Source: Synechococcus sp. CBW1002
GTDB taxonomy: Bacteria > Cyanobacteriota > Cyanobacteriia > PCC-6307 > Cyanobiaceae
Direction: 5' to 3'
DNA: 64,000 nucleotides
NCBI RefSeq assembly: GCF_015840915.1
Contig: NZ_CP060398.1
Span: 1,364,001-1,428,000, forward strand
Shown here: in pieces, positions 4,861 through 45,381 of the stretch
Layout of the letters: each line of letters starts with the position of its first letter
Numbering within the stretch: position 1 is the stretch's first letter
The notes under the pieces: model-generated
Database searches by the model: none
What the model was told of the DNA's origin: nothing
The model's input: the letters and a program-made list of their open reading frames with translations, nothing else
Made by a program: the position numbers and the translations under genes

Positions 4861-7856
4861 GCCCGCCGGAGTCCCCGTCCCTGATCCTGCTGGTGGGAAT
4901 GCATCGCAGCGGCACCTCGCTGCTGGGCTCGCTGCTGCCGGCACTGGGGGTGCCGCTGCCGGGTGATCTGATCGCCGGCGATGCCCATAACCCCGAGGGC
5001 TACTACGAACGTTCCGACATCACGGCTCTGCAGGAGCAGCTGCTGATCGCAATGGGCCAGTGGTGGCCGTCGGAAGCGGGGGTGCTGCATCGGCCCGAGG
5101 GCTGGCTCGACTTTCCCGCCGTACGCAGCGCTGCCGAGAGCCTCGACCGGCTTCTGGCGCAGGAGCAGCGGCGCCAGCTTGGGCCCTGGGCCATCAAGGA
5201 TCCGCGCACGTGCCTGCTGCTGCCGCTCTGGCGCCAGGTCGCCGCGCAGCGCGGGGTGCCCCTGAAGCTGGTGCTGAGCGTGCGGGATCCCGCCGAGGTG
5301 ATGGTGTCGCTGCTCCAGCGCGATCGCCGGGCCGCCGGCATGACCGCCTGGCGGGCCCAGCGCCTCTGGTGGCGCCACAACCGTGCGCTTCTGCTGGATG
5401 CCGCTGATCTTCCCCTGCTGGTGGTCGACTATGGCGCCTGGTTCGATCCTTCGACCTGCCGCCGCCAGCTGCAGGCCCTGGGACTCTTCTGCCTGGAAGC
5501 CGAACCCATGTCAGCGGCCCTCGAGGCTGCCGCGGCCTGCATCCGCCCAGGTCATCGGCGCAGCCGCCGTTCCCGCGCCGAGCTCCCCCAGGCCCTGCAC
5601 CCGCGCCTTCGTCGGCTGCACCGTGCGCTGCAGGAGCTGGCTGCGGGGCCACCCGATCGGGAACGCCGGCAGAGGCGGCTGGTTCGCTGGCTGGCGGCGC
5701 CGGGGCGCCAGCAGATACCGCCGATCGCACCGGCCGGCCGCTCCCTGCGCTCCCAGCTGATCCATCGGCGCGCTTCCCTGGCGCCCCAGGCGGAGGTGGG
5801 CCCCTGGTTCGATCCGGCCCACTATCGCCGCCAGGCGCCGGGTCTGGGCCTGGACCACGACCCCCTCTGCCACTACTGGTGGCGGGGATGGCGGGAGCAG
5901 CGCTCCCCCCATCCCGCCTTCGAGGGGGACGCCTACCGGCTGGCCTGTCGTAACCGAGGCCTCACCGTTCGGGGAGCACCGCTGCGCCATTTCCTCACCG
6001 TGGGTCTGGCGGCCGGCATCCCGCCCTCCCCGGTGGCCGAACCGCGCTGGCTGGCCGGCACACTGCAGCGGCAGGCGCTCTGGCGCGCCGCCCGACTGGA
6101 GGGGCTCCATCCGTGGGGGGCAGCAGCTCTGGCCCTGGAGGGTGACGATCTCCAGCAGGCGGTGGAGCGGCTCCGTCACTGGCAACGGCAGGGCTTCAGC
6201 GCCGACGATCTGGCCGCGATCGCCGCTGCCCCCCCCGGAAGCTTCACCCTGCCCGCTGCCCTGCTTCCGGATCCACCGCCGCTTCCACAGCGCTGCCGCC
6301 TGCAGGTACTGGGCACCCACCTGCACGATTGGCAGGTCCATGCCTGGTTGCAGCATGCACCCCTGCCGCCGGGGTTCTCGTTGATCGAGGGGCAGGCGCC
6401 GCCCGAAGCGGCTGAGTCGGTCATCGCCCTGGTGCTGAGCCCCCTGCCGCCGGGCCCCGCCAGCCTGCAGCTGCTCGGTCTGGCGCTGCTGCCCTGGGTG
6501 TTCGCCAGGGCCGAGCAGGTGCCGCTGCTGCGTCGCCTGGGGATCAATGCCCAACCCCTCGAGCCCGGCGTCGCCCCCAACGGCTGGCTGGCGGTGGAGG
6601 AGGCGGAGGCCGAAGCCGCGCGGCAGCTCGGAGTACCACCCGCGGCGGCCCTGGCCGGGCTGGCGCCCATCCTCGCCTTCGGCAGTCTGGGAGCAGAGTG
6701 GGAACGAAGCCTGGCGCCACCGATCTGGGGCTGGCCGGAGTTCGACGACCTGGCGATCGAGACCCCGCAGCAGGCCAGGCTGCTGGCCGCCTGGCTGGAT
6801 GCCTGCAACCGTGCCGGCATCCAGCTGGTGCGGCTCGAGCCCCCAGGCAGTGAGCGGCTGCTGCGGGGGTGGCAGGCCCTGATGCCCCCCTCTGACCCGG
6901 CACCGGGCTGGCTGCCGCCCCAGGGCTTCGTGGCGCCACTCAGCGCGATGGAGCTGCAGGGGGAACTGCGCTGGCGGGGCCAGGGGGCGCCAGCACCACC
7001 GCCGGTGCAGACCCCCAGGCCCGCCCACACGCTTCTGTGGGCCTGGCAAGGCGACGCCTCCGGGCCAGGCGGGATGGTGCAGACGCCCACGGCGGCGGTG
7101 TGCATCAGCCTGCACAACTACGCCGACCGGATCACCGCGGCCCTCGAAAGCGTCCTCGTCCAGAGCCATGGACCCCTCGAGCTGATCGTGGTCGACGATG
7201 CTTCCGAGGACGGTGGCGAGCAGCGCTGCCTGGCCTGGTTGGAGCGCCACGGTCAACGCTTCGTGCGTGCCCTGCTGGTGCGGCACACCGGCAATGGCGG
7301 TCTGGCGGCCGCACGCAACACCGCCTTCAGGCTCGCCCAGGCTCCCTGGTGCTTCGTGCTGGATGCCGACAACCTGCTCCACCCCGAGGCGGTGGCCGCC
7401 TGCCTGCGCCTGGCTCAGGCGAGCCCGGCAGACATCGCCGTGGTGCATCCCCTGGTGGAGGTGCTCCAGGACGGCGTGCTGCAGGGCAGCGACTCCACAG
7501 GGGCGGCGCCCAGCCTGATCAGCGGCCGCAGCTGGCAGCGCTGCCATTTCCTGGATCGCAACCTGTTGGACGCCATGGCCCTGGTGCGGCGCAGCGCCTG
7601 GGACGCGGTGGGGGGCTATGCCCACATTCCGGGCGGATGGGAGGATTACGACTTCTGGTGCAAGTTGATGGAAGCCGGCTACCAGGGCGTGCTGGCTCCG
7701 CAGCGGCTGGCCACCTACCACCGCCACCCTGAATCGATGCTCGCCACCGCCACCCATCAGCGGCTGCGGCTGGTGAGCCGCCACCTGCAGCAGCGTCATC
7801 CCTGGTTGCAGCTGAGTCTCGCCGCCGGGCCCGAGGAAGGATGGACCCTGGCGTGA
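4857..7856 (+). CDS. Fusion protein: N-terminal sulfotransferase, central glycan-associated region, C-terminal GT2 glycosyltransferase
   Basis: The 999-residue protein starts with TTG at 4857, overlapping the previous stop as TTGA. Residues about 8-50 hold a sulfotransferase loop (LILLVGMHRSGTSLLGSLLP) and residues about 135-150 a second motif (LVLSVRDPAEVMVSL). Residues about 310-400 contain two copies of a motif of the type FDP-HY and HYWWRGWREQRSPHPAF, a linker seen in large multi-domain polysaccharide transferases. Residues about 745-990 form a GT2 domain with VCISLHNYADRITAALESVL, IVVDDASEDGG and FVLDADNLLHP. About 300 residues between these parts are not assignable. The architecture suggests that sulfation and sugar transfer are joined in one polypeptide. 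The next gene overlaps by 16 bases. Confidence 0.75.
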   Translation: MSPPESPSLILLVGMHRSGTSLLGSLLPALGVPLPGDLIAGDAHNPEGYYERSDITALQEQLLIAMGQWWPSEAGVLHRPEGWLDFPAVRSAAESLDRLLAQEQRRQLGPWAIKDPRTCLLLPLWRQVAAQRGVPLKLVLSVRDPAEVMVSLLQRDRRAAGMTAWRAQRLWWRHNRALLLDAADLPLLVVDYGAWFDPSTCRRQLQALGLFCLEAEPMSAALEAAAACIRPGHRRSRRSRAELPQALHPRLRRLHRALQELAAGPPDRERRQRRLVRWLAAPGRQQIPPIAPAGRSLRSQLIHRRASLAPQAEVGPWFDPAHYRRQAPGLGLDHDPLCHYWWRGWREQRSPHPAFEGDAYRLACRNRGLTVRGAPLRHFLTVGLAAGIPPSPVAEPRWLAGTLQRQALWRAARLEGLHPWGAAALALEGDDLQQAVERLRHWQRQGFSADDLAAIAAAPPGSFTLPAALLPDPPPLPQRCRLQVLGTHLHDWQVHAWLQHAPLPPGFSLIEGQAPPEAAESVIALVLSPLPPGPASLQLLGLALLPWVFARAEQVPLLRRLGINAQPLEPGVAPNGWLAVEEAEAEAARQLGVPPAAALAGLAPILAFGSLGAEWERSLAPPIWGWPEFDDLAIETPQQARLLAAWLDACNRAGIQLVRLEPPGSERLLRGWQALMPPSDPAPGWLPPQGFVAPLSAMELQGELRWRGQGAPAPPPVQTPRPAHTLLWAWQGDASGPGGMVQTPTAAVCISLHNYADRITAALESVLVQSHGPLELIVVDDASEDGGEQRCLAWLERHGQRFVRALLVRHTGNGGLAAARNTAFRLAQAPWCFVLDADNLLHPEAVAACLRLAQASPADIAVVHPLVEVLQDGVLQGSDSTGAAPSLISGRSWQRCHFLDRNLLDAMALVRRSAWDAVGGYAHIPGGWEDYDFWCKLMEAGYQGVLAPQRLATYHRHPESMLATATHQRLRLVSRHLQQRHPWLQLSLAAGPEEGWTLA

Positions 7857-8941
7857 TGTCCACAGCCGCCGTGGACACGGACCTCCACCGGGCCGGTGGC
7901 CTTTCCTGCCTGGTGATCTCCCGCACACCGGAGCTGCTCAACCGCATGCTGGCCACACTCCAGGACGCCCGGGCGTTCTGGCACCCGGGTGATGAAGTGC
8001 TCTGCTCCTGGAATGGCAGCGCTGAGGCTGAGAACGCTCTCCAGCCCCCCGCGCCTGCTCTGCCGGGATTTCGGATCGCTCAGCGGCAGCCGTATCACTT
8101 CGCCAGCAACATGAACGCTCTGGCGCGGCAGGCGCAGGGTGAGTGGCTGTTGCTACTCAACGATGATCTCATCCTTGATCCCGGAAGTATCGATCGCGCC
8201 ATCCATCTCCTCAGCCAGCACCCGGAGGTCGGGGTGCTGGGCGGTCGATTGCGCCAGTCGGGCGGACAGATCAGCCATGCCGGGCTGCTGTTTTCCTCCC
8301 CGGAGGGTCTGCCGTACAACCGCCTGCGACCCCAGCTGGGGCCCCTGATCGACGCCGAGGGCCCGGAAGCGCTCGAATCAGGCCCGATCCCCGCGGTCAC
8401 CGGCGCCCTGATGTTGCTGCGTCGATCCGATTTCCTGGCGGTGGGGGGGCTGCGCGAGAGCTTCCGGGTGTGCGGCGAAGACATCGCCCTCTGCCTCGAT
8501 CTCTGGCAGCAGCTCGGCAAGACGCCCTACTACGCCAGCGATGTGAGTGGCATCCACGATGAGAAGAGCACCCGCGGCACGACCCCCGACCAGCACGACA
8601 TCCGGGCGGTAGGACGGCTCGCTGCGCCCTTCTGCCAGCACGATCAGGCCTTCCAGGCACGCCAGAGCCACTGGGCCCTGCAGGAGGCGGCGTTGCTGTG
8701 TCGTCTCACCGAGGAGCAATGGCACCAGGCCGGCGTGTGCCGCCAGCAGCTGGACCGGCAGCAGCAGCAATGGGAAGCGAATCAACAGCACTGGGCCCGC
8801 GAACGCAGCGCCCTGCTGGCCAGGATTGACAATCTCGAACAACGGCTGGAAGCCCTGCTGCGCAGCAGCTCCTGGGCCATCACCAAACCCTGGCGGGCCC
8901 TGGGTCGCTGCTTTGCACCGACTGCGGGGCGCCAGTCCTGA
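7841..8941 (+). CDS. Family 2 glycosyltransferase with C-terminal coiled coil
   Basis: The 366-residue protein has a GT-A fold signature. LSCLVISRTPELLNRMLATL opens the domain, LLLLNDDLILDPGSID carries the DD metal-binding residues, and ALMLLRRSDFLAVGGL is followed by GEDIALCLDLW, the acidic catalytic region (ED). This spacing is typical of rhamnosyltransferase-like GT2 enzymes. Residues about 265-350 are rich in Gln, Glu, Arg and Leu (RQQLDRQQQQWEANQQ) and likely form a coiled coil ending in a positively charged tail (SSWAITKPWRALG) that recurs in cyanobacterial glycan enzymes. The ATG at 7841 lies inside the end of the preceding fusion gene, so the two are probably coupled. Confidence 0.82.
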   Translation: MDPGVMSTAAVDTDLHRAGGLSCLVISRTPELLNRMLATLQDARAFWHPGDEVLCSWNGSAEAENALQPPAPALPGFRIAQRQPYHFASNMNALARQAQGEWLLLLNDDLILDPGSIDRAIHLLSQHPEVGVLGGRLRQSGGQISHAGLLFSSPEGLPYNRLRPQLGPLIDAEGPEALESGPIPAVTGALMLLRRSDFLAVGGLRESFRVCGEDIALCLDLWQQLGKTPYYASDVSGIHDEKSTRGTTPDQHDIRAVGRLAAPFCQHDQAFQARQSHWALQEAALLCRLTEEQWHQAGVCRQQLDRQQQQWEANQQHWARERSALLARIDNLEQRLEALLRSSSWAITKPWRALGRCFAPTAGRQS

Positions 8942-8960
8942 TCGTTCCGCCGGCCTGCCG

Positions 8961-10187
8961 ATGCCTGCCCCCCCTCCCCCCCTGGAACACCTCTGGGTGG
9001 ACCTCACCCCGATGCTCCCCGGTGGCGCCAACGGTGGCGCCAAGCCGTTCATCCTCACCCTGCTGACCGAGCTGGCCCGTCAGCACCCCCAGGTGCGATT
9101 CGATTGCACCTGTCGGCCCGAGCTGCTGCCGGAACTGGCACTCGCATCGCCGCTGGAGCCGAATCTCCACGTCGGTCCGGTCATCCCCGCGGTGGCGGCC
9201 GGACGCTGGCTGGGTTCGCGGCGTCTGGGTCGGGCGGGTCGCCGCTGGCGTCGACGTCTGGCCTCGCGGCCCGGGACGCCGGTGGAGACCGGGCAACCGA
9301 ACCGGGGCGAGGGAGCGCAGCTGCTCTACTGCCCCTTTGGAGCACCGCTGCTGCACCGGGCCAGCCTCACCACGGTGTCCACCTTCCACGACCTGCAGGT
9401 GCAGGCCTATCCCGACTTCTTCCCCGCCGCGGCCCGCCGGGAGCGCCTGGAGCATTTCCGCCAGATGCTGGCGAAGGCCAGTCGCATCGCGGCCATCTCC
9501 CAGTTCTCCCGTCAGGAGGCGATCGAGCTGGGGGGCGATCCCGGCCGGATCGTGGTCATTCCCCACCGCATGGCCCTCAGCCGCAGGGCCGTGCCGATGG
9601 CTGAGCCCCCCTGCGCCCTGCCCTCCGGACGCTTCTTCCTCTACCCCGCCAATCTCTGGCGTCACAAGAACCATGAACTGCTGCTCAGTGCCTTCGCCAT
9701 GGCCCGCCACCAGGGGCTGCCAGCCGACCTGAAACTGGTGTGCACCGGTGATGGCGTCGACCGGCTCGAGCCCCTGCGCGAGCTGGCAGAGCAGCTCGGT
9801 CTGGCTGAGGCCGTCCTCCTGCCCGGATTCGTCAGCGATGCGGAGCTGGAGGGGCTCTACCAGCACGCCCTGGCCGTGGTGTTCCCCTCCCTCTACGAAG
9901 GCTTCGGCCTGCCGGTGATCGAGGCGATGGCCCGCGGCCTGCCGGTGGCCTGCAGCGACACCACCGCCCTGGGGGAAGTGGCCGGGGAGGCCGCCCTGCG
10001 CTTCCATCCCGGCCATCCCCAGCAGATCGCCGATGCCTTGCGCCAGCTGGCGGAGGATCCGGCCCTGCGAGACCGGCTGATCGAGCGGGGCCTGAGCCAG
10101 GCAGACGCCTACGCCCAGCCGGCTGTGATGGCTCAGCAGTACTGGGAGCTGTTCCAGGAAGCCCATGCCGCCGGTCCGGTGGCCTGA
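8961..10187 (+). CDS. Family 4 glycosyltransferase
   Basis: I chose the ATG at 8961 because the conserved HLWVDLTPMLPGGANGG start of this GT4 subgroup follows at once and because it lies just after the preceding stop; an in-frame ATG at 8826 is inside the previous gene. The 408-residue enzyme has the C-terminal GT4 signature: FFLYPANLWRHKNHELLLSA, then VVFPSLYEGFGLPVIEAMAR, whose E-x7-E pattern binds the nucleotide sugar, and a following CSDTTALGEVAGEAAL segment. It probably transfers mannose or a related hexose from a nucleotide sugar on the cytoplasmic side. The preceding gene ends 19 bases upstream. Confidence 0.85.
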   Translation: MPAPPPPLEHLWVDLTPMLPGGANGGAKPFILTLLTELARQHPQVRFDCTCRPELLPELALASPLEPNLHVGPVIPAVAAGRWLGSRRLGRAGRRWRRRLASRPGTPVETGQPNRGEGAQLLYCPFGAPLLHRASLTTVSTFHDLQVQAYPDFFPAAARRERLEHFRQMLAKASRIAAISQFSRQEAIELGGDPGRIVVIPHRMALSRRAVPMAEPPCALPSGRFFLYPANLWRHKNHELLLSAFAMARHQGLPADLKLVCTGDGVDRLEPLRELAEQLGLAEAVLLPGFVSDAELEGLYQHALAVVFPSLYEGFGLPVIEAMARGLPVACSDTTALGEVAGEAALRFHPGHPQQIADALRQLAEDPALRDRLIERGLSQADAYAQPAVMAQQYWELFQEAHAAGPVA

Positions 10188-10227
10188 GGCTGAGCGCCTC
10201 CGAGAATCATCTCCGCAGCACCGTTCC

Positions 10228-11139
10228 ATGAGCGCATCGATCCGCATCAGTGTCGTGACGCCCTCGTACAACCAGGGGGCCTTTCTGGCCCGCACCCTGG
10301 CCAGCGTGGCCAGTCAGAGCCATCCCGCCCATGAGCATCTGGTGTTCGATGGCGGCAGCACCGACGACACCCTGCAGGTGCTGGAGGCCGCAGGTGACGG
10401 GGTGCGCTGGGTGTCGCGGCCGGATGGAGGCCAGGCTGACGCTGTGAACCAGGGTCTGCAGGCGGCCGGCGGTGATGTGATCGCCTGGATCAACTCGGAT
10501 GACGTCTATTACCCCGGTGCCTTTGCAAGGGTGGCTGCCGCCTTCGCCAACGATCCCGACCTGGATGTGGTGTACGGAGCTGCCGATCACATCGACCTGA
10601 ATGACAGGGCCTTCGAGGCCTACCCCACCACCTTCTGGGATCCGGAACTGTTGCGCCACACCTGCTTCATCTGCCAGCCGGCCCTGTTCTTCCGCAGGCG
10701 CGTGGTGGAGACGGTGGGTCTGCTGGATCCGGGTCTGCGGTATTGCATGGACTACAACTACTGGCTCAGGCTTGCCGATGCCGGCTGCCGCTTCGCCTAC
10801 CTGAGCGACAAGCTGGCCGGCTCCCGCCTCTACGCCGACAACAAGACCCTCAGGGACCGGCCGGCCGTGCATCGGGAGATCGCCGAGATGTTCAAGGCCT
10901 ACGACGGCCAGGTGCCGCTGCGATGGGTCTTCGCCTACGCGCACCACAGCACGGCGGCCTGGATCGACCGCAGCGACCATCCCCTGCGCTTCAAGATCAG
11001 CCTCTATCTGGAAACGATGCGCAGTCAGTGGCGCTGGAACCATCGCGTCGGGATCTCCGCTCTGCGGGAGCTGCGCCGTGCCAGTCGACGTCATGCCCTG
11101 GAGGGTCAGGCCGCCGAGGCTGCCGCGGCCTCCTCGTAG
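10228..11139 (+). CDS. Family 2 glycosyltransferase
   Basis: The start at 10228 is preferred over an upstream in-frame ATG at 10165 because the latter overlaps the previous gene, while the GT2 domain starts within a few residues of 10228 (RISVVTPSYNQGAFLARTLA). The 303-residue protein contains HLVFDGGSTDDTLQVL, GGDVIAWINSDDVYYPGAF with the DxD-like DD, and a catalytic region CMDYNYWLRLADAGCRFAYL. This is the pattern of WcaA/SpsA-like GT2 enzymes that add sugars to lipid-linked chains. Its 3' end overlaps the convergent GT4 gene by 34 bases (11106-11139). Confidence 0.85.
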   Translation: MSASIRISVVTPSYNQGAFLARTLASVASQSHPAHEHLVFDGGSTDDTLQVLEAAGDGVRWVSRPDGGQADAVNQGLQAAGGDVIAWINSDDVYYPGAFARVAAAFANDPDLDVVYGAADHIDLNDRAFEAYPTTFWDPELLRHTCFICQPALFFRRRVVETVGLLDPGLRYCMDYNYWLRLADAGCRFAYLSDKLAGSRLYADNKTLRDRPAVHREIAEMFKAYDGQVPLRWVFAYAHHSTAAWIDRSDHPLRFKISLYLETMRSQWRWNHRVGISALRELRRASRRHALEGQAAEAAAASS

Positions 11140-12287
11140 AGCTCCAGCAGCTGGCGGGTGCTGTCCTGCCAGTTGAAGGCTGCAGCCCTGTCCCGGGCTG
11201 CAGCAGCCAGACCGGCAAGCCTCTGGGGCTGGTTCAGGAGACTCTCGATGGCCTCCACCCAGCCGTCGCGATCATCCGGTGCCAGGAGGATGCCGGCATC
11301 CGCGACGATCTCGGGCAGTGAGGTGGTCGAGGAACTGAGAACCGCTGCCCCCTGCCCCATCCCCTCCAGCACAGGCAGACCAAAGCCCTCGTAGTGGCTT
11401 GGGTAGAGGTTCAACAGGCAGTTCCGGTAGAGCCAGATCAGCTCCCGATCACTCACATAGCCGAGCAGGTGGATATCCGAGGCCCAGGGCGATGCCGCCA
11501 GATCCTTCTCGAAGCCTTCCATCAACCAGCCCTTGCCACCGGCAAACACCAGCGGAATCGCCGCTCCGCCCCTCTCCCGGAAGCGTTGATACACCTCCAC
11601 CAGGAAGCGCTGGTTTTTGCGCGGTTCGATCGTGCCGGTGGAGAGCAGGAAGGGCCGGCCGCTGCGGAACAGTGCGGCTCGCGGTTGGCTGGGCTGCAGA
11701 TCGAAGCCGGGCTGATCGAAGCGCGAGGCCGGATGGATCACCCGCACCCGCTCCGCCGGCACGTGGGGGAAATGACGCAGGAATGCACGCTTCGACGCAT
11801 GGGAGATGGCCACCAGCCAGTCCGCCCGCAGGGAGGCCTGCAGCACACCCTGGAAGCAACCGAGCCGATTCTTTTCGGTCGTCCACTCGGGATGCTCGGC
11901 AAAGCTCAGGTCGTAGAGCGTGTAGATCAGGGTGGAACGGAGCCGCCAGGGCGGACACCAGAAGTTGTTGGCGTGCACCAGATCGAAGCCGGCGAGCTGA
12001 TCGTTCACCCGCTGCCGATCCCGCCAGAAGGCCTCTGCATCGCTGCGTCGCGGCAGGCGGGGTCCATAGGCCACACCCTGACGGCGATGGGGGAAGGCCG
12101 CCGCCTGGCTGGGATCGTGAAAGAAATCGCCGAAGCTGGTGAGCAGGGTGTAGCGATGCGGTGCACCCGAGGCCAGCAGGCCGTCGATCAGGGCGGCGGC
12201 ATAGAACCCGCAACCGGCCTTGCGCGGGCCCGTCTGACTCACATCAAAGGCGATGTTCAGCGGCGCCACCCCTCCTCTCCTGGACAA
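11106..12287 (-). CDS. Family 4 glycosyltransferase
   Basis: The protein is 393 residues from ATG 12287. The conserved start is NIAFDVSQTGPRKAGCGFYA, so shorter starts are possible: a GTG at 12269 or even a CTG at 12260, which would overlap the upstream stop as CTGA. The upstream GT2 gene ends at 12257, so the longest form overlaps it by 31 bases. GT4 signatures are FLLSTGTIEPRKNQRFLVEV and LLNLYPSHYEGFGLPVLEGM, with the E-x7-E pattern near residue 305. Donor and acceptor are unknown. It converges on the GT2 gene at 10228-11139. Confidence 0.82.
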   Translation of the reverse strand: MSRRGGVAPLNIAFDVSQTGPRKAGCGFYAAALIDGLLASGAPHRYTLLTSFGDFFHDPSQAAAFPHRRQGVAYGPRLPRRSDAEAFWRDRQRVNDQLAGFDLVHANNFWCPPWRLRSTLIYTLYDLSFAEHPEWTTEKNRLGCFQGVLQASLRADWLVAISHASKRAFLRHFPHVPAERVRVIHPASRFDQPGFDLQPSQPRAALFRSGRPFLLSTGTIEPRKNQRFLVEVYQRFRERGGAAIPLVFAGGKGWLMEGFEKDLAASPWASDIHLLGYVSDRELIWLYRNCLLNLYPSHYEGFGLPVLEGMGQGAAVLSSSTTSLPEIVADAGILLAPDDRDGWVEAIESLLNQPQRLAGLAAAARDRAAAFNWQDSTRQLLELYEEAAAASAA

Positions 12288-13177
12288 TCGGGCAAGGGTA
12301 TCGGAGCCGGACGCGGCCCCAGCCGCAGGCGCAGCTTGCCCCAGTAGCGCTGCCAGGGCGGCGCCACAATCCCCAGCTCCCGGTTGATCGCGGCCAACTG
12401 CCTCCGGCCCCGCAGGATCGCCCGCCAGCCGCTGGTGGCCCCACCCTCCGCCATCGCCACCAGCGGGTCCGAGCAGATCTGGACGCGATCCGCCAGCTCG
12501 GGTCGCAGCAGCAGGGTCTGCATCAGTTTGTAGTCGGCGGAGAGGCTGTAGCGCTCATCGAACCCGGTGGCCCGGTAGAGGGCGGTTTCGGCCAGAAAGC
12601 CGGGATGGGGGTAGTGCAGCCCGCTGCGCAGCCGCTGATGCCAGAGGGCCGGATCCCGCGGCGGGGATGGCACCATCCACCGGGCCCGCAGCCAACGATC
12701 GGGCCGGCGGAAGTATCCGATCGAGGCCAGCAGCAGAGCGGCTTCCCGCCGACGAGCCTGCAGCAGGAAGGCCGCGTAGGCGCCCGGATCCAGCAGGAGA
12801 TCGTCTGCGTTGAGCACGTGGCTGTAGTGGCCACGCGCCAGCCGCAGGCCCACATTCATGGCGGCATAGGGGCCGCCGCCGATGTCCGTCTGCCAGCGGC
12901 AGAAGGGATGACGGTCTGCATGCCGCTCCAGCAGCCGTTGGGTGCCGTCACGGGAGCCGCCATCAATCACCAGATGCTCCAGGTCTTCACCGGCCTGCCG
13001 CAGAATCTGCCGAGCCCGCGCCACGCTCGTGAGCGTCTCGGGCAAGGTTCTCGCGGCTTCGAGGCAGGGGGTGATCACCGTCACCAGCGGCAGCCCGCCT
13101 TCCGAACCGGACCCTGCGGCATCGGTCTCGGGAGACGCAGCCTTCACGGGCACAGGGGCGGCAGGGAGGGGGTCCAT
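12257..13177 (-). CDS. Family 2 glycosyltransferase
   Basis: The chosen ATG at 13177 gives 306 residues and a GT2 domain starting at about residue 30 (LPLVTVITPCLEAARTLPET). The frame stays open much further upstream, to 13963, but that part is antisense to the neighbouring GT4 gene and has no family signature. Motifs are HLVIDGGSRDGTQRLL, GGPYAAMNVGLRLARGHYSH, LNADDLLLDPGAYA with the DD, and ERYSLSADYKLMQTLL near the expected catalytic site. It is divergent from the GT4 gene starting at 13214, with only 36 bases between the starts. The gene downstream overlaps it. Confidence 0.83.
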   Translation of the reverse strand: MDPLPAAPVPVKAASPETDAAGSGSEGGLPLVTVITPCLEAARTLPETLTSVARARQILRQAGEDLEHLVIDGGSRDGTQRLLERHADRHPFCRWQTDIGGGPYAAMNVGLRLARGHYSHVLNADDLLLDPGAYAAFLLQARRREAALLLASIGYFRRPDRWLRARWMVPSPPRDPALWHQRLRSGLHYPHPGFLAETALYRATGFDERYSLSADYKLMQTLLLRPELADRVQICSDPLVAMAEGGATSGWRAILRGRRQLAAINRELGIVAPPWQRYWGKLRLRLGPRPAPIPLPDCPGEEGWRR

Positions 13178-13213
13178 GGGCACGCTGTGACCCGGGATAC
13201 CGGAGACTGAAGC

Positions 13214-14308
13214 ATGCCCTCTCGCTTCTCCCAGAGCGTCAGCATCGGCTTCGATGGCCAGATCTTCCGGCGGCAGCGGCGGGGGGGGATCAGCCGCTAC
13301 TTCCGAGAACTGGCCCTGAATCTGCGCGCTGCGGGCGCAGAGGTGCTGATGGCGGAGGAGCGCCAGGGCTGCTGGCCCTGGTCCGGTCACCTGCCCTGGC
13401 GGCGGGCGGATGTGGTGCACGCCACGTTCTACGGCGGCGGGCCCTATCGGCTGCAGAGCCACCAACGCCTGGTGAGCAGCCTGTTCGACATGACGCCGGA
13501 GCGCCATCCCGAGCACTTTTTCCTGCCGGCCCTGCGTTCCCCCCATGCCAACAAGCCGGGGTGGCTGGAGGTCTCTGACCTGATCATCAGCATCAGCGCC
13601 GCCAGCGCCGACGACCTGGCTTTCTTCCAGCCGACCCTGCGGACGCCCCTCAGGGTGATCCACCTCGCCACCGCCATCGACAGGCTGGTCCCCCAGCCCG
13701 TGGAGGCGCTGGAGGGGCGACGGTTCTGGCTGATGGTGGGCAAGCGCCACGCCTACAAGAACGGCCTCACACTTCTGCGGGCCCTGAGCCTGCTGCATGG
13801 CGGCGACGGCGATCGGGGTCGCAGGGATCAGCCCCTGCTGGTCTGTGCCGGAGGAGGCCCCTGGAGAGCCGAGGAGCGGCGCTGGATCCATGGCCAGGGT
13901 CTGGAGGATGCGGTGCTGCAACTGGCAGCGACGGATCCGGTGCTGGCCTGGCTCTACCGCCACGCCGAAGCCGTGCTGGTGCCCTCCCTGGCTGAGGGGT
14001 TCTCCCTTCCGCTGATCGAAGCTCTCGCCTGTGACACGCCAGTGGTGGCCTCAGATCTGGAGGTGCACCGGGAGGTTGGCCAGAGCTTCGCGACCCTGCT
14101 GCCGGCCCTGAATGCACGGGTCTGGAGCGAGCTGCTGGCCGCGGCCGGGCAGGGGACTCTGCCGCGGCCGAGTCACCGGCTGGGAGGAGAGCGCTATGCC
14201 CGGCTGCGTCGTCATTTCGCCCCCGAGCGGCTGGTGCAGGACCATCTGGAGGCCTACGGATCCACCACCGACCGTCCCAGTCCCCGGATCAGGGGCAGGC
14301 GTGGCTGA
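13214..14308 (+). CDS. Family 4 glycosyltransferase (mannosyltransferase-like)
   Basis: The 364-residue enzyme begins with SIGFDGQIFRRQRRGGISRY, a start typical of GT4 mannosyl- or related transferases. Its C-terminal half has FWLMVGKRHAYKNGLTLLRA, VLVPSLAEGFSLPLIEALAC with the E-x7-E motif, and TPVVASDLEVHREVGQSFA. It reads divergently from the GT2 gene at 12257-13177. Its end overlaps the convergent GDP-mannose dehydratase gene by 20 bases (14289-14308). Position beside that dehydratase makes a GDP-sugar donor plausible, but this is inference. Confidence 0.83.
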   Translation: MPSRFSQSVSIGFDGQIFRRQRRGGISRYFRELALNLRAAGAEVLMAEERQGCWPWSGHLPWRRADVVHATFYGGGPYRLQSHQRLVSSLFDMTPERHPEHFFLPALRSPHANKPGWLEVSDLIISISAASADDLAFFQPTLRTPLRVIHLATAIDRLVPQPVEALEGRRFWLMVGKRHAYKNGLTLLRALSLLHGGDGDRGRRDQPLLVCAGGGPWRAEERRWIHGQGLEDAVLQLAATDPVLAWLYRHAEAVLVPSLAEGFSLPLIEALACDTPVVASDLEVHREVGQSFATLLPALNARVWSELLAAAGQGTLPRPSHRLGGERYARLRRHFAPERLVQDHLEAYGSTTDRPSPRIRGRRG

Positions 14309-15233
14309 TCAGGGCTGCGATCACACCATCCACATCAAGCCGTGCCCGCCAGCCATGGCGTTCCAGCATCGGCGCGGGATCTCCGACACTGCTGAGGATT
14401 TCCGAGGGACGCCGCAGGCTCTCCACAAGGTCGACATGATCGTGCCAGTCGAGGTCAAGCTCCCGGAATACGCGGGCGACAAAATATTCCAGAGTTTCCA
14501 TTCTTCCAGTACAGATCACCTGGTCCTCCAGGCAGTCGGCGCGAAGGATCAGCTGCATGGCGTCGATATATTCTTCGGCCCAGCCCCAGTCTCGCGCTAC
14601 AGACAGATCTCCTAGCTGTAGGCGAAATCGGGAATCGTGTCGGCAGCGTAATGCCCCGTCAACGATCTTTCGGGTTACGAATGTGGAGGAGCGGTAGGGT
14701 GATTCGTGGTTGAACAGGACGCCGGTCACGCAGCCGAGACCATAGGCTTGTCGATAGACTTGCACCGTATTGAAGCTGGCATCTTTTGCGATGGCATAAG
14801 GGCTCAGAGGCTGGCGCGGACTCCGCACATCGGCGGGTCGCGGCGTATTTCCGAAAATCTCACTACTGCCGGCAAAATAGAGTCGTCCATTGAAGTCGGC
14901 GAAGCGTGCAACCTCCAGTAGGTTGATCGTGCCATTGATGATACTGTTAAAGGTGTCCACCGGTTGACGAAAGGAAAGTCCAACCGACGACTGGGCTGCC
15001 AAGTTATAGATTTCCTCTGGCTGATGGCGGGTCATCAGTTCTAGAATCTCGCGGAAATCGCAGAGATCTGCTGTGGTCAGCTCCAGATCTCCTGTGATGC
15101 CAAGCTGCTGATGGGTTGCCAGGTTGGGATTGCTGGAGCGGGACACACCCACCACTGTTGCCCCTTGGCGCAGCAGCGAGCGACACAACAGTGAGCCATC
15201 CTGGCCAGTGCAGCCAAACACCAGTGCCTTCAC
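14289..15233 (-). CDS. gmd: GDP-mannose 4,6-dehydratase (short form)
   Basis: The 314-residue protein belongs to the extended short-chain dehydrogenases. It opens with the NAD(P)-binding ALVFGCTGQDGSLLCRSL and carries the catalytic Tyr-Lys pair in SPYAIAKDASFNT. The LFNHESPYRSSTFVTRKIVD stretch is the best family marker of GDP-mannose 4,6-dehydratase, which makes GDP-4-keto-6-deoxymannose for GDP-fucose, GDP-rhamnose or related sugars. It is about 10-50 residues shorter than usual, and its C-terminal end (GDPAPMLERHGWRARLDVDG) departs from the normal GDP-SKAK-LGW form. The DNA is visibly less GC-rich than the flanks. It lies one base from the sugar-phosphate transferase gene at 15235 (same strand, upstream), an operon. 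Confidence 0.85.
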   Translation of the reverse strand: MKALVFGCTGQDGSLLCRSLLRQGATVVGVSRSSNPNLATHQQLGITGDLELTTADLCDFREILELMTRHQPEEIYNLAAQSSVGLSFRQPVDTFNSIINGTINLLEVARFADFNGRLYFAGSSEIFGNTPRPADVRSPRQPLSPYAIAKDASFNTVQVYRQAYGLGCVTGVLFNHESPYRSSTFVTRKIVDGALRCRHDSRFRLQLGDLSVARDWGWAEEYIDAMQLILRADCLEDQVICTGRMETLEYFVARVFRELDLDWHDHVDLVESLRRPSEILSSVGDPAPMLERHGWRARLDVDGVIAALISHACP

Positions 15234-15234
15234 C

Positions 15235-16539
15235 TCAGCGGCCCCCTGCCTTGAGAATGATCTTGATCGTCTTAATCAGAATCAGCAGGTCTAAAGCTGT
15301 GCTCCAGTTATGTAGATAGTAAAGGTCATAACTGAGCTTGAGTTCGGCTTCCTCCAGGCTTGCGGCATAGGGCGCACATACCTGAGCCCAGCCGCTCAGG
15401 CCTGGTCGCATCCAATGGCGCTTGCGATAGTGGGGAATATGAATTTCCAGCTCAGCTTCGAACTCCGGGCGCTCTGGTCTTGGGCCGATCAGGCTCATAT
15501 CGCCCTTGAGCACGTTGATCAACTGGGGCAGTTCATCGAGTCGCACCCGCCGCAGTAACTGACCCACCCGCGTAATGCGACAGTCACCAGGCAAGGTCCA
15601 GCTGGCAGGCGCATTCGGATCGGCGCGGGTCATGGTGCGCAGCTTGAGCAGTCGGAAGGTATGGCCCATCCAGCCGCTGCGCTCCTGGACATAGAACACT
15701 GACCCTCGATCCTCAAGCCAGATCAGGAGAGCTGCCAACAACATCACAGGCAGGCAGACCACCAGCAGAAGGACCGCTACCACCACATCGGCAACACGTT
15801 TGAGCTGGCGTTGCACACTGAAGGTGTCAGACCAGGGAATGTCAGCCTGGGATAACCAGTCGGCAGGCAGAAGGGCGGGGGGCAGTCGCTCCAGTTCCCG
15901 CTCCGCCAGCTCGATCACTGTTGTGATCGGGACACCGTTGTCGCCCAGAACCTGAAGCTGGTGTTCCTGGTCGGGGGCCAAGCGCAGATCGCTGCCAAGG
16001 ACCACACCGCCCGGGGGGAAGGCATGGCCCGCAGGGGTGAGCACCCGAGGGGTGACCGCAAAGGGTGTGCGTTGCCACTCCCGCAGGATTGCCGGGGCTT
16101 CGTGAGGAGTCGCCATCAGGCCCCAGTCTCGCTGGGGTGAGTGGCGGCCCAGCCAGCGGAGGCCCAGTCTCACCAGCAGCGCCCAGACGGTGAGGGAACC
16201 GAGCAGGAACGTCTGTGTGCTTCGGTGGCTCAGGTAAAGCCCCACAGGCAGGTTGAAGAGCCAATCCATCAGGGCCACAACCAGCATGGTTGCCAGGGCT
16301 GTGATCATCAGGCGCAGGATCACCAGACGCAGGCGCAACCAGGGCCAGCGAAGCACCGTATAAGTACCGAACAGCCAGCCGAACAGCAGGTACAGAAGTG
16401 CGAAGGCGATCAGCCACCGAGGCTGTCCCAGGAGATCGGTTCTCCGTGTCTGATCGAGCAATGCTGCCAGGATCAGGCAAGCGCTCAGATCAAGGGAGGC
16501 GCAGAGGAAGAGAAGTCTGCGGGGCTTTCGCCAGTGCAA
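15235..16539 (-). CDS. Polyprenyl-phosphate sugar-1-phosphate transferase (WbaP/ExoY-type, initiates glycan synthesis)
   Basis: The 434-residue membrane protein has about four hydrophobic N-terminal helices (residues about 10-115), a CoA-binding-like middle part, another hydrophobic segment (VVVAVLLLVVCLPVMLLAAL) and a C-terminal bacterial sugar transferase domain. The domain is marked by KRVADVVVAVLLL, SVFYVQERSGWMGHTFRLLK, LRTMTRAD, TRVGQLLRRVRLDELPQLIN, SLIGPRPERPEF and RPGLSGWAQV. Such enzymes transfer a hexose-1-phosphate to undecaprenyl phosphate, the first step of O-antigen or capsule synthesis. It is upstream of gmd in a two-gene operon. About 107 relatively AT-rich bases separate its start from ribH. 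Confidence 0.88.
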   Translation of the reverse strand: MHWRKPRRLLFLCASLDLSACLILAALLDQTRRTDLLGQPRWLIAFALLYLLFGWLFGTYTVLRWPWLRLRLVILRLMITALATMLVVALMDWLFNLPVGLYLSHRSTQTFLLGSLTVWALLVRLGLRWLGRHSPQRDWGLMATPHEAPAILREWQRTPFAVTPRVLTPAGHAFPPGGVVLGSDLRLAPDQEHQLQVLGDNGVPITTVIELAERELERLPPALLPADWLSQADIPWSDTFSVQRQLKRVADVVVAVLLLVVCLPVMLLAALLIWLEDRGSVFYVQERSGWMGHTFRLLKLRTMTRADPNAPASWTLPGDCRITRVGQLLRRVRLDELPQLINVLKGDMSLIGPRPERPEFEAELEIHIPHYRKRHWMRPGLSGWAQVCAPYAASLEEAELKLSYDLYYLHNWSTALDLLILIKTIKIILKAGGR

Positions 16540-16646
16540 TACAGGATTTTATCTGAATTGAACTTAAGTCCAAATGGTCCCAGAGCACAAAGGACATGGC
16601 GGCTGGGGCTCCGGCACAACAGGCCCGGCCAGTGCCATGTAGCGGC

Positions 16647-17129
16647 TCAGGGGTCTGCCAATGCCCCCATGAGGCTGCCCATCTCCAGGGCCTGCAGGCC
16701 GTAGCTCCAGCCCAGGTTGCTCTTGATGCCCGCCCGCTCCAGGGCCTGCTGCAGGGTGTCGGTGGTGAGTACCCCGAAGATCACCGGCACTCCGGTGTCA
16801 CGGGCGACGCTGGCCACGCCCTTGCTCACTTCGGCCACCACCACATCGAAGTGGGGGGTGTCGCCGCGGATCACCGCCCCGAGGGTGACCACCACCTGAT
16901 AGCGACCACTGCCGGCAAGCCGCTGGGCGACCAGGGGAATCTCAAAACTGCCGGGGACCCAGGCCACGTCAAGCTGGGCGCTCGACTCGCCCACATCGAT
17001 GCCGTGGCGTGAGAGGCAATCCAGGCAGCCGCTGAGCAACTTACCGGTCACCAGATCGTTGAACCGCGCCACCACAACAGCGATGCGGAGGCTGGCAACG
17101 TCGGTGAAGCGACCTTCAAAAATGGCCAA
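16647..17129 (-). CDS. ribH: 6,7-dimethyl-8-ribityllumazine synthase (riboflavin synthase beta chain)
   Basis: The 160-residue protein is full length for RibH. It catalyses condensation of 5-amino-6-ribitylaminouracil with dihydroxybutanone phosphate, the penultimate step of riboflavin synthesis. Key stretches are [51 protein letters not shown] with the catalytic-region His, and [20 protein letters not shown]. It forms icosahedral or pentameric cytoplasmic assemblies in other bacteria. The ATG lies 5 bases after the psbZ stop on the same strand, so psbZ and ribH are co-transcribed. Function is certain on family grounds. Confidence 0.97.
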
Positions 17130-17134
17130 GGGGT

Positions 17135-17323
17135 TCAGACCACGAAATAGCTCATGCCCCAGTTGAGCAGCACCAGGGCCACCCAGGCGGCGCCGCCCAG
17201 CAGGATGATGCGATTGGAGCGGCCGCTGTCGTCGCTGCTGGCGTAGAGCACGGGCACCGCCACCACCAGCGCGAACGACATCACCACCAGGGCCAGAACG
17301 GTGAGGGTGTTGAGGATCTGCAT
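17135..17323 (-). CDS. psbZ: Photosystem II reaction centre protein Z
   Basis: I placed the start at ATG 17323, which gives 62 residues, the standard PsbZ length; a longer in-frame start exists at 17611 but adds low-complexity sequence. The protein has two hydrophobic helices (about residues 3-25 and 38-58), the loop [19 protein letters not shown], and the characteristic [10 protein letters not shown] end. PsbZ lies at the periphery of the PSII core and stabilises interactions with CP43 and other small subunits. The gene is followed 5 bases later by ribH. mutS is divergent on the other side, about 170 bases away. Confidence 0.95.
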
Positions 17324-17493
17324 GGGTGCGGCAACGGAGATGGCCGGCAGCGGCATGGGGTCGCCGGCGGTCAGTTTTGGGATTCTCACACGACGATTCC
17401 TGCCCCCGTCCCGGAGCTGGCAGGTTCCTTCACAAGTTGTCGGGAGCGGGCCGACCAGGCCCCTTACGATCAATCCTCGTTCGTCCTGCCAGC

Positions 17494-20343
17494 GTGGCCG
17501 CGGGAGCCGAGCAGCAGCTGTCGCTGGTGGACGATCTGGGGCTGCAGGGAGACCTGTTCGCCGCAGCTCCGGCCGCGCTGCCCAGCTCGGATCAGGCCCC
17601 AGTCGAGGCAAATCGCAGCGGTGATGAGGCGCCCCTGGACGACGCCCAGCTGGAGGCCGATGCCACGGCCCGGCCCCGCCGACGCCGGCCAGCCAGAGCG
17701 GCTGGCGGCCTGGACCTCGCGACCGGTGACGGCAACGGCAACGGAGGCGAGCTCAGTGGTCTGGACACGGAGCCCATTGGCTCCACCAGCGCAGCAACCC
17801 CTGACGGATCCTGTGCCGCAGCCGCTGCTCCGGCCGACGCTGAAGACCTGCCTGATCACGACCTGCCCCGCTGGCATCACCACAGCCTGGTGGATCCGGC
17901 CCAGCTGACGCCGGTGCTGCGCCACTACGTCGAACTCAAGGCGGCCCATCCCGAGCGGGTGCTGCTCTACCGCCTGGGTGATTTCTTCGAGTGTTTCTTC
18001 GAAGACGCGATCACCCTCTCGCGCCTGCTGGAGCTCACCCTCACCGGCAAGGAGGCCGGCAAGGCGATCGGGCGCGTCCCGATGGCGGGCCTGCCCCACC
18101 ATGCGGCTGAGCGCCACTGCAGCGAACTGGTGCGCCGCGGCCTCAGCGTCGCCCTCTGCGATCAGCTGGAGACCACCCCAGCCAAGGGGGCCCTGCTCAA
18201 GCGGGAGATCACCCGCGTGCTCACACCGGGCACGGTGCTGGACGAGGGCATGCTCAGCGCCCGCCGCAACAACTGGCTGGCGGCCGTGGTGCGGGAGGGC
18301 AACCACTGGGGACTGGCCGTAGCCGATGTGAGCACCGGCGAATTCCGGCTCACCGAGCGGCAGGGCACGGATCTGCTGCACCAGGAGCTGCTGCAGCAGG
18401 ACGCCGCCGAAGTGCTCTGGAGCGGAGAGCCCGAACCGGCCTGGTGCCCTGACGGCTTGCTGCTCACCAGCCAGCCCCGCACGCCGTTCGCGGCACCGGA
18501 GGCGCGGGCAAGGCTGCTGGCCCGCTTCCGCCTGGCCAGCCTCGATGGCCTGGGGCTGGCGGAGGCCCCCCTGGCCCTGCGCGCCGCCGGCGGACTGCTC
18601 GCCTATCTGGAGGGCACCGAGACCGGCCGGCTGGTGCCCCTGGACATGCCTCGGCTCTGGCATGCCGGCGACCAGCTGGTGCTCGACGCCCAGACCCGCC
18701 GCAACCTGGAGCTGACCCGCACCCAGCTGGGGGGCAGCCTGCAGGGCTCCCTGCTCTGGGCCCTGGATCGCTCCATGACCGCCATGGGGGGGCGCTGTCT
18801 GCGCCGCTGGATCGAGGCTCCCCTGGTGGATCGGGCCGCGATCAGCGCCCGTCAGGACGGCGTGGGCGAACTGGTGGCCAGCCGTTCGCTGCGCCTGAGT
18901 GTGCGGCGCCTGCTGCGGCCCATGGGTGATCTGGAGCGGCTGGCGGGCCGGGCCGGCGCCGGCACCGCCTCGGCCCGGGATCTGGTGGCCCTGGCCGACG
19001 GCCTGGAGCGGCTGCCCCTGCTGGCCGGTCTGCTCGCCCAGGCCAGCAGCCCCCCCCTGACGGCGCTGCAGCGCACCTGGCCGGAGCTGGTGGAGCTGGC
19101 CGCGGTGCTGCGCCACACCCTGGTGGACGATCCACCGCTGAGCCTCAGCGACGGCGGCCTGATCCACGACAGCGTCGATGCCCGCCTCGATGGCCTGCGC
19201 AACCAGCTCGACGACCAGGACACCTGGCTGGAACAGCAGGAAGCCCTGGAGCGCCGCGCCAGCGGCAACCCCAACCTGCGCCTGCAGTACCACCGCACCT
19301 TCGGCTACTTCCTCTCGGTCAGCCGCGCCAAGGCCGCCTCGGTGCCAACGCACTGGATCCGCCGCCAGACCCTGGCCAACGAAGAACGCTTCGTGACCCC
19401 CGAGCTCAAGGGCCGCGAAGGCCGCATCCTGCAGCTGCGGACCCGGGCCGCCCAGCGGGAGTACGAGCTGTTCTGCGCCCTGCGCGAGCAGGTGGGGGAG
19501 CGGGCCGCCGTGATCCGGGAGGCGGCGCGGCGGGTGGCCGAGCTCGATGTGATCGCCTCTCTGGCGGAGGTGGCGGCCACCGGTGGCTACTGCCGCCCTG
19601 AGATCGTCGAAGGGCGCGAGCTCTGGATCGACGCGGGTCGCCATCCGGTGGTGGAGCAGCTGCTGGTGGAGGAGCCCTTCACGGCCAACAGCCTGAGGCT
19701 GGGGTCTGCGCCGCACGCCGCCACCGTTCCGGATCTGCTGGTGCTCACCGGTCCGAATGCCAGCGGCAAGAGCTGCTATCTGCGCCAGAGCGGGTTGCTG
19801 CAGCTGATGGCCCAGATCGGCAGCTGGATTCCGGCCCGCAGTGCCCGCCTCGGCATTGCCGATCGGATCTTCACCCGCGTCGGCGCCGTCGACGACCTGG
19901 CCAGCGGCCAGTCCACCTTCATGGTGGAGATGGCCGAAACCGCCAACATCCTCCACCACGCCACCAGCCATTCCCTGGTGCTGCTCGATGAGATCGGCCG
20001 GGGCACCGCCACCTTCGATGGACTTTCGATCGCCTGGGCCGTGGCCGAGCACCTGGCCGAACGGATCGGTGCCCGCACGATCTTCGCCACCCATTACCAC
20101 GAGCTCAATGAGCTGGCCGATCTGCTGCCCAACGTGGCCAATGCCCAGGTGCTGGTGCAGGAAACCGGCGACGACCTGGTGTTCCTGCATCAGGTGGTGA
20201 CGGGCGGCGCCAGCCGCAGCTACGGCATCGAGGCGGCCCGCCTGGCCGGGGTGCCGCCGGTGGTGGTGCAGCGGGCCCGCCAGGTGCTCGATCGGATCGA
20301 GGCCAACAGCCACGTGGCGGTGGGGCTGGAGCCAGAGGCCTGA
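17494..20343 (+). CDS. mutS: DNA mismatch repair protein MutS with N-terminal extension
   Basis: From GTG 17494 the protein has 949 residues. Residues about 1-130 are an acidic, Ala/Arg-rich extension of no recognisable fold that contains QQLSLVDDL near its start, reminiscent of a beta-clamp-binding peptide. The MutS core then follows. [14 protein letters not shown] is the mismatch-recognition loop, with FFE in place of the usual FYE. The ATPase has Walker A GPNASGKS, Walker [17 protein letters not shown] and the FATHYHEL motif. The dimer region follows. An ATG at 17326 is in frame but overlaps the divergent psbZ start region, so it is less likely. Repair of replication errors in the cytoplasm is the expected role. 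Confidence 0.93.
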
Positions 20344-28747: not shown

Positions 28748-29732
28748 GACCCAGGACCATCTCTACGCGGCCGTGGAACTGGCCTACAGCGAGGCCCGGT
28801 GGTCCGAGGCCCTGTCCATCGGTCAGCAGCTGCTGGGGCAACTGGATCCAGCAGCGAATGCCTCGCTGAAGGTGCGCCTGGAGCTGCTGCTGGGCCACAT
28901 TCAGCTCTATGGCTTCGGTAATGCCACCGCTGCCGCCGAGCACTACACCACGGTGAGTCAGGCCAGGCCGGCCCCGATCCTGCTGGACATCGCCCAGCAG
29001 GGGCTGGAGCATTGCCAGGTGTTGCTCGGCGGCAGCGCGGGGGCTGCACCGGTGCTGGACGGCATCGAGCAAGGGGATGTCGTCCCGGAGGGCTCGTTGC
29101 TGGGGAACTCCGATCCTGATCAGGAGCGTGGCGAAGCAGAGAATCCGGCAACCCCAGCGCCAGCTCTGGACGGCACAGCGGCAGCCACAGGCCTGGAAGA
29201 CGGATCGACGCCGGAGACAATCGAAACGGCCGGTGCGACAGGCGCGGCGTTCCCCTTCACGCCCACGGCGGTGGCCAGGGGAGGAATCGCCATGCCTGCG
29301 GCAGCCATGCCCTGGATGGTGGATCTGGGTGCCAGCGATCCCGGAGCCCAGCCCGCGGCAGATGGCGCCGTGGCGATGGCCTCCAATCCCTTTCTGCAAG
29401 CTTCACCAGTGATGCCGGCGGGTATCACCGTGCCGCATTTACAGGCGGATCCCCAAGAAGCCGCTGCTGAACCCACAGCGCCGGTGGCTGCAGTGATGGC
29501 TGTTGCACCGATCGCGGTGGAGGTGGTGGATGAACCCGAGCTCATCGAGGTGAACCAGGCTGATCCCACCCGGGCCGAGGAGATCGAGGTGGTTCCTGTG
29601 GAAGCCAAAGGTGGGGCCAGCCTCACCCTGGAGAAGACCGGGGAGGCAGAAGTTACCGTTCCGCCGCCCCTGTTCACTCCGGAGGAAGAGGAGGAGCTGG
29701 CCCGCGGACTGCTGCGGGTGGTGCTGCGCTGA
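28740..29732 (+). CDS. Conserved acidic protein of unknown function
   Basis: The ATG at 28740 overlaps the tilS end (ATGACTGA), so the genes are probably co-translated. Of 330 residues, the first 100 are helical and TPR-like (HLYAAVELAYSEARWSEALS and LDIAQQGLEHCQVLL). The rest is low-complexity, rich in Ala, Pro, Glu and Val, and ends in an acidic LFTPEEEEELARGLLRVVLR helix. There is no signal peptide or membrane segment. I do not recognise a named family; TPR-like interaction plus a disordered acidic tail suggests a scaffold. The gene converges on rnj, 48 bases away. Confidence 0.7.
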   Translation: MTETQDHLYAAVELAYSEARWSEALSIGQQLLGQLDPAANASLKVRLELLLGHIQLYGFGNATAAAEHYTTVSQARPAPILLDIAQQGLEHCQVLLGGSAGAAPVLDGIEQGDVVPEGSLLGNSDPDQERGEAENPATPAPALDGTAAATGLEDGSTPETIETAGATGAAFPFTPTAVARGGIAMPAAAMPWMVDLGASDPGAQPAADGAVAMASNPFLQASPVMPAGITVPHLQADPQEAAAEPTAPVAAVMAVAPIAVEVVDEPELIEVNQADPTRAEEIEVVPVEAKGGASLTLEKTGEAEVTVPPPLFTPEEEEELARGLLRVVLR

Positions 29733-29780
29733 GGGCGCACGCACCACTCCTGACAGAAGCGGGCGTTCAACAACCGGCGA

Positions 29781-44826: not shown

Positions 44827-45381
44827 ATGGATCTTCTTCTGCCTCAGGCTTACCTGCTCGGTCTGGTGGTGCTGCTCGGAGGTGCCGCTGTCGTGGTGAC
44901 CCGCCAGATCCTGCGGGTCCGGCGGGATGAGTCAACCCTGGCCCGGCTTGAGGGTGCGGGAGTCGAACAGGATGCTGCCAATCTGTACGAGCTTGGCTCC
45001 GTGCAGCTGCGCAAACGGCTCTATGGCCAGGCGGTTGACACCCTGAAGCGGGCCCTCAAACAGGTGGATGGCGAACAATCCCCTGGTGAGGCCAGGGCTC
45101 TGATTGCCAACGCGATCGGCTTCGGCCTGGCTGCTCAGGGACAGTACAAATCCGCGATTCGTCATTACGAATCTGCTCTGCGTGCCAAGCCGGATTATCC
45201 GGTGGCACTCAACAATGTCGCTTTCGCCCTCGAGAAGCAGCAGAAACTCGAGGAAGCCTGCGAGGCCTACAAGCAGGCCCTCACTCTCGATCCCTCCAAC
45301 AAGACGGCCCTGCGCCGGTTGAAGCGACTGGAGCGCAGTCAATCAGCTCTCAAGACCAGCGTTCCCAATCCAGAAACCTGA
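44827..45381 (+). CDS. Membrane-anchored TPR protein
   Basis: The 184-residue protein starts with a single hydrophobic helix (YLLGLVVLLGGAAVVVTRQI), so it is likely N-terminally anchored with the rest cytoplasmic or lumenal. Residues about 50-170 form three to four TPR-type helical pairs, for example NLYELGSVQLRKRLYGQAVD, then SAIRHYESALRAKPDYPVAL and ACEAYKQALTLDPSNKTALR, the last two in canonical TPR form. TPR proteins of this kind are scaffolds, often in photosystem assembly in cyanobacteria. It follows rplT by 17 bases and is probably co-transcribed. A specific function is not recognisable. Confidence 0.8.
   Translation: MDLLLPQAYLLGLVVLLGGAAVVVTRQILRVRRDESTLARLEGAGVEQDAANLYELGSVQLRKRLYGQAVDTLKRALKQVDGEQSPGEARALIANAIGFGLAAQGQYKSAIRHYESALRAKPDYPVALNNVAFALEKQQKLEEACEAYKQALTLDPSNKTALRRLKRLERSQSALKTSVPNPET

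Follow-up and report, generated by a model that had tools for sequence, protein, structure and literature searches.

A low-GC dehydratase and priming-transferase segment in a surface-polysaccharide locus of Synechococcus sp. CBW1002 probably marks an exchange of existing genes

Does a dip in GC content within a surface-polysaccharide locus mark genes that were gained, or genes that were already in place and were exchanged? The question arises in Synechococcus sp. CBW1002, where a stretch of 64,000 nucleotides (contig NZ_CP060398.1, positions 1,364,001 to 1,428,000; hereafter the window) carries two adjoining minus-strand genes of lower GC content: a gmd-like gene of the GDP-mannose 4,6-dehydratase (GMD) family at 14289-15233 and a gene for a putative priming transferase, a polyprenyl glycosylphosphotransferase (PGT), at 15235-16539. 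A preliminary description of the window took the low GC content, an AT-rich leader and a seemingly shortened gmd end as a hint that the sugar-activation and chain-initiation steps were recently acquired within an older locus. Comparison with the rest of the genome, with a congener and with more distant relatives leads us to a different answer. With a probability of about 0.8, positions 14109-16672 represent a homologous-recombination tract of about 2.56 kb, an allelic replacement within the surface-polysaccharide locus that occurred in one of the two lineages compared, more likely that of the window.

The dip itself and the AT-rich leader at 16540-16575 are as the preliminary description had them. 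GC content is 0.592 over 14289-16560 against 0.674 for the whole window, the lowest 1-kb value of the window (0.556) lies at 14501-15500, and the leader has G or C at 10 of 36 positions. The gmd-like gene has a GC content of 0.574 and a GC content at third codon positions (GC3) of 0.625; the respective values are 0.610 (0.611 in the comparison with relatives) and 0.713 for PGT, and 0.66-0.71 and 0.80-0.86 for neighbouring genes (ribH 0.658/0.826, mutS 0.712/0.859, GT4 0.694/0.836). For the genomic baseline, 19 stretches of 20 kb spread over the 3.85-Mb genome were taken together with the window; one targeted stretch (L019) was excluded. A simple gene caller delivered 302 baseline genes, 226 of them with at least 200 amino acids; at least one window gene (12257-13177) escaped it and was added by hand, together with 17135-17323, for the comparison of synonymous divergence below. 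Among the 226 genes gmd is 10th lowest in GC (z -2.2) and 7th in GC3 (z -2.8), PGT 25th (z -1.4) and 20th (z -1.5). Codon-use scores are 0.494 for gmd and 0.515 for PGT, the mean of the sampled genes being 0.660. The dip is real, clear for gmd and moderate for PGT. It is neither unique nor exceptional genome-wide, given these ranks and because 17% of the 3382 overlapping windows of the segment's length drawn from the 19 stretches are equally low or lower.

Divergence from the congener sets the segment apart more sharply. The comparison used 80 kb of a congener contig (G001:C47, matching Synechococcus sp. CS-1328, NZ_JAHLYT010000045.1), to which 40 of the 48 window genes were matched and eight were not. 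Of the 40 matched genes, gmd has the highest synonymous divergence (dS), at 1.60, and PGT the third highest, at 0.98; saturation affects values above 1. The median is 0.19 for the other 38 matched genes and 0.176 for the 32 outside the sugar locus (maximum 0.745). The two genes thus lie approximately 5-9 times above the median of the genes outside the locus. Differences at fourfold sites agree with dS, with 0.50 for gmd and 0.46 for PGT versus 0.05-0.42 in the 32 outside genes. GC3 in the window minus GC3 in the congener is -0.179 for gmd (z -7.4) and -0.120 for PGT (z -4.9), compared with a mean of -0.006 (standard deviation 0.023) for the other 38 genes, and the congener copies have host-like codon-use scores (gmd 0.692, PGT 0.659). 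Ordinary GC variation within the genome, requiring no historical cause, could appeal to the 17% of sampled windows that are as low. It is contradicted by the size of the synonymous difference and by the congener, in which the same genes are not GC-poor, and we consider it the least probable of the explanations weighed here. A TPR-repeat protein gene at 44827-45381 (GC 0.607, dS 0.745) is low in GC in both genomes.

The divergence has defined edges. A change-point fit of a single tract to 5.3 kb (13201-18500) delimits 14109-16672, with 24.0% difference inside, 7.2% outside and a log-likelihood gain of 148; the edge intervals within 3 log units are 14073-14119 on the left and 16658-16708 on the right. 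The tract comprises the 3' end of a GT4 glycosyltransferase gene, the whole gmd-like gene, the whole PGT gene, the spacer and the last bases of ribH, so that both edges fall inside reading frames and the AT-rich leader and spacer inside the tract. The left edge is held by the plus-strand GT4 gene at 13214-14308 (PF00534), which is convergent with the gmd-like gene, overlaps its end by 20 bp and is identical to the congener at 0.897 over 13214-14050 and at 0.661 over 14090-14308. The right edge lies in the 3' end of minus-strand ribH at 16647-17129 (lumazine synthase; TIGR00114, above cut-off), where identity is 0.780 at 16647-16700 (50 sites) and 0.925 at 16701-17129. Upstream of PGT, the leader and spacer at 16540-16646 (minus strand) have a GC content of 0.547 versus 0.655 in the congener and 45% identity over 87 aligned sites. 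When blocks across 33 kb were fitted, the gmd-PGT tract stood out with the greatest likelihood gain (up to 182) and the strongest shift in GC (about -0.06); in control blocks from 17 to 44 kb the gain was at most 84 and the GC shift at most -0.044. The best control tract, 28757-30043, has 17.8% difference, a gain of up to 84 and a GC shift of -0.01.

These edges bear on whether any recombination needs to be invoked. Genes for surface sugars are often variable, and four further genes of the locus also show raised dS (0.53-1.0, the gene at 7841-8941 with 0.995 being slightly above PGT), so that gmd and PGT might owe their divergence to nothing more than rapid evolution or a mutation bias of their own. 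Nonsynonymous divergence (dN), however, is only 0.06 for gmd, with a dS of 1.6, and 0.11 for PGT; because dN stays low, purifying selection seems to act on both copies, which appear functional. Moreover, the change extends beyond the pair to the spacer and into the ends of two adjoining genes, the edges are sharp and inside reading frames, and the composition has shifted. Fast evolution without recombination is therefore very unlikely.

Gene order indicates what kind of event took place. The congener has the same order as the window, i.e. mutS, a gene that we take to be psbZ, ribH, PGT (84%), gmd (89%), GT4, GT2 and GT4. In a more distant genome of another genus (G389), order and strands of the window are kept from the GT4 gene at 8826 to mutS, the PGT gene of G389 matching in two overlapping pieces. 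Since the same pair occurs in the same order in both genomes, the gmd-PGT segment would have replaced an existing pair, and the activation and initiation steps would not have been acquired. The preliminary description was right that the segment has a history different from its flanks, as is evident from the jump in dS and the sharp edges at 14109 and 16672; what it read as acquisition is better read as replacement, the pair being already in place in the congener and in G389. Inspection of 32 PGT loci, 18 of which showed only about 1.5 kb of flank, revealed mutS, psbZ or ribH near PGT in seven, including the congener. The mutS-ribH region is an anchor next to which a priming transferase is retained in several genera. 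In one further locus (L092 of genome G006) PGT matches in two gapped pieces at approximately 8926-10014, beside mutS, ribH and psbZ, with a third partial match at 11871-12137; shortened or duplicated copies are possible there.

The same arrangement argues against the view that the genome recently took up a foreign gmd-PGT cassette from a distantly related low-GC bacterium or from a phage. The gmd-like gene is patchy within the family (53 of 400 genomes, 10 of 59 genera at E 1e-60; PGT relatives occur in 96 genomes and 29 genera at E 1e-90), and related genes are found in phages and plasmids, as such a gain would lead one to expect. Yet the same pair occupies the same site in the congener and G389, and window and congener are nearest neighbours in both protein trees. 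A tblastn search of phages returned 226 records, all below 60% identity, and blastn of 14050-16750 found no match in phages; viral contigs gave 12 loci with at most 38%, and the best plasmid match, from Azospirillum, reached 50.5% identity. Recent foreign gain is contradicted by these data and highly improbable, while gmd may have entered the family long ago.

Several observations also weigh against recombination within the tract as we propose it. The comparison rests on a single congener genome. Protein phylogeny, which the preliminary description had named as a check on its claim, gave no conflict for gmd or PGT in a sample that held a single congener and no donor lineage: the sequences of window and congener group as nearest neighbours, with a support of 85 in a quick gmd tree and of 100/99 in the PGT tree, the latter built from 44 rows and residues 206-434 only, where the program cautioned that distant rows had long branches. 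Among 400 family genomes, viral contigs, phages and plasmids there was no donor closer than the congener, and a peptide-pattern scan of one genome per species for 84,980 species yielded no closer gmd donor. G389 is not supported as donor, its distance to the two copies being about the same (gmd 0.714 and 0.729). Furthermore, the gene at 7841-8941 lacks a downward GC3 shift, and a high dS alone is not special in this locus, where several events may overlap. With one congener and an unsampled donor lineage, the missing conflict, which would be the classical proof, and the missing donor do not exclude an exchange. They do mean that the case for it rests on divergence and composition, and that the donor would need to be sought in a close lineage outside the sample.

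A last point of this kind concerns direction. The gmd gene is also GC-poor in three other genomes, the next relatives (0.509, 0.489 and 0.549), as in the window, and GC-rich only in the congener (0.638), so that the congener's copy could be the newcomer. Recombination would then have run the other way, the window keeping older, lower-GC copies and the congener having received a GC-rich pair. PGT speaks against this reversal: the window copy lies below the ribH-adjacent copies of G172, G211 and G085 (0.655-0.673) and of the congener (0.674), though the G128 copy is lower still (0.594). Codon use of gmd and PGT in the window is atypical for its own genome and that of the congener copies is not, which suggests, on grounds of composition, that lower-GC copies were imported into the window's lineage. 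We favour this import, and regard the reverse as unlikely, though to be reckoned with.

From the composition, the synonymous jump, the edges and the conserved order we infer recombination as the cause. A related lineage with lower GC3 would have supplied its version of the gmd-like and PGT genes, which would have displaced the resident pair, the crossovers falling within the GT4 and ribH genes at their 3' ends, and the function of the pair would be unchanged by the swap. As predicted from their families, the GMD-like enzyme would convert GDP-mannose to a GDP-4-keto-6-deoxy sugar, and PGT would load the first sugar phosphate onto a polyprenyl carrier and so start a chain that the GT2 and GT4 enzymes of the locus would extend.

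The gmd-like gene (GTG start, 314 amino acids, PF16363 with 1e-78) belongs to a short subfamily that differs from canonical GMD. Its product shares the Pfam family and the catalytic and several substrate-site positions with the canonical enzyme, but scores 217 bits against TIGR01472, the GMD equivalog model, under the cut-off of 415. A quick tree of 117 rows places it in a clade apart from canonical GMD, the dividing branch having 100% support. (L050, at a contig end, and L234, a short match, were omitted from this tree; L236 and the named duplicates L159-L162 were not entered, nor were L053, L105-L106, L114, L116-L118, L120-L125, L127-L128, L131-L134, L163-L166 and L244-L248.) In a residue alignment of 73 chosen rows in four sets, S123-x-E125, Y146 and K150, corresponding to the S/T-x-E and YxxxK motifs and presumably catalytic, are kept, as are N175, K189, R214, R275 and E278; all of these are positions conserved in the canonical rows, 123 less strictly. 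An R-R-x-S-x-N-x-x-R stretch, invariant in 27 canonical rows and in our assumption the cofactor-binding loop, is mostly absent, its first R and the N being kept. A canonical gmd is present elsewhere in the same genome (C1:2804175, 557 bits, above cut-off), adjoined by a GDP-L-fucose synthase-like gene (468 bits, cut-off 500).

The length of the protein is normal for this subfamily, which spans several phyla and measures 311-325 amino acids in 32 other clade members by the extraction used. The shortened and altered C-terminal end reported in the preliminary description is therefore not a truncation: the TIGR01472 alignment reaches model position 336 of 342, the GMD structure sequence 1rpn aligns through residue 325 of 335, and the congener copy is 89-90% identical.

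PGT (TTG start, 434 amino acids) contains the complete catalytic domain of exopolysaccharide polyprenyl glycosylphosphotransferases (PF02397, Bac_transf; 1.3e-61, residues 247-430, positions 1-179 of 179). With 289.7 bits it falls just short of the TIGR03025 cut-off of 295.55. A promoter in the AT-rich leader was considered and rejected, as no consensus promoter or terminator was found in 16540-16646.

The surroundings of the tract are themselves no uniform background. On the right, mutS at 17326-20343 (plus strand; NF003810, 981.8 bits) is a conserved flanking anchor with a dS of 0.12 versus the congener. On the left, a minus-strand GT2 glycosyltransferase gene of the same locus at 12257-13177 (PF00535, dS 0.165) lies outside the tract; the plus-strand open reading frame (ORF) opposite to it, 12161-13210, has no family match and is probably a shadow ORF. 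The congener stretch offers no match to the plus-strand GT4 and GT2 genes at 8826-11139; its corresponding position (L084:15841-18630) carries instead a 929-amino-acid glycosyltransferase-like ORF with a GT4-type domain and a GC content of about 0.47-0.51. This is a second difference within the locus and a real swap of gene content. A Pfam scan of 20 window ORFs assigned those of the sugar locus mostly to GT2, GT4 and other sugar-transfer genes and one methyltransferase; besides the gmd-like gene no epimerase or reductase family match, and so no dedicated reductase, was seen among the 20. The whole locus is mosaic, not simply older around gmd and PGT as had been supposed.

Patchworks of this kind in surface-sugar loci are known in bacteria, and the gmd-PGT tract is a new instance, of which a narrow check of the literature found no earlier report. 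In the wbm (O-antigen) locus of the classical bordetellae, as described in PMC3849452, close strains with genomes of about 67% GC likewise carry discrete, lower-GC, highly divergent regions with low dN/dS and predicted recombination breakpoints. The wbm regions, in that account, have less than 50% similarity and trees that conflict with the genome tree; the 2.6-kb tract reported here is 76% identical, keeps its gene content and shows no tree conflict, and the genomes compared are two free-living cyanobacteria. Closer in kinship are the genomic islands of marine picocyanobacteria, in which, according to PMC7522525, gained genes are concentrated and are more often shared between close relatives. 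Those islands are defined by gained genes, whereas the present tract contains no gained gene relative to the congener.

The likeliest meaning of the GC dip in this sugar locus is thus a genuine recombination tract, in which genes already present were swapped and none was gained. It places one picocyanobacterial lineage in the general pattern of mosaic surface-sugar loci. A far more speculative proposal, which we hold to be quite unlikely, is that the gmd-PGT pair is a portable unit swapped among picocyanobacterial lineages by recombination anchored in ribH and the glycosyltransferase genes, and that its dehydratase subfamily, with most of the arginine stretch gone, may yield a different GDP-sugar. 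If so, exchange of the pair could alter the sugar that begins the surface chain or the one that is activated for it, and hence phage sensitivity, with gene content unchanged.

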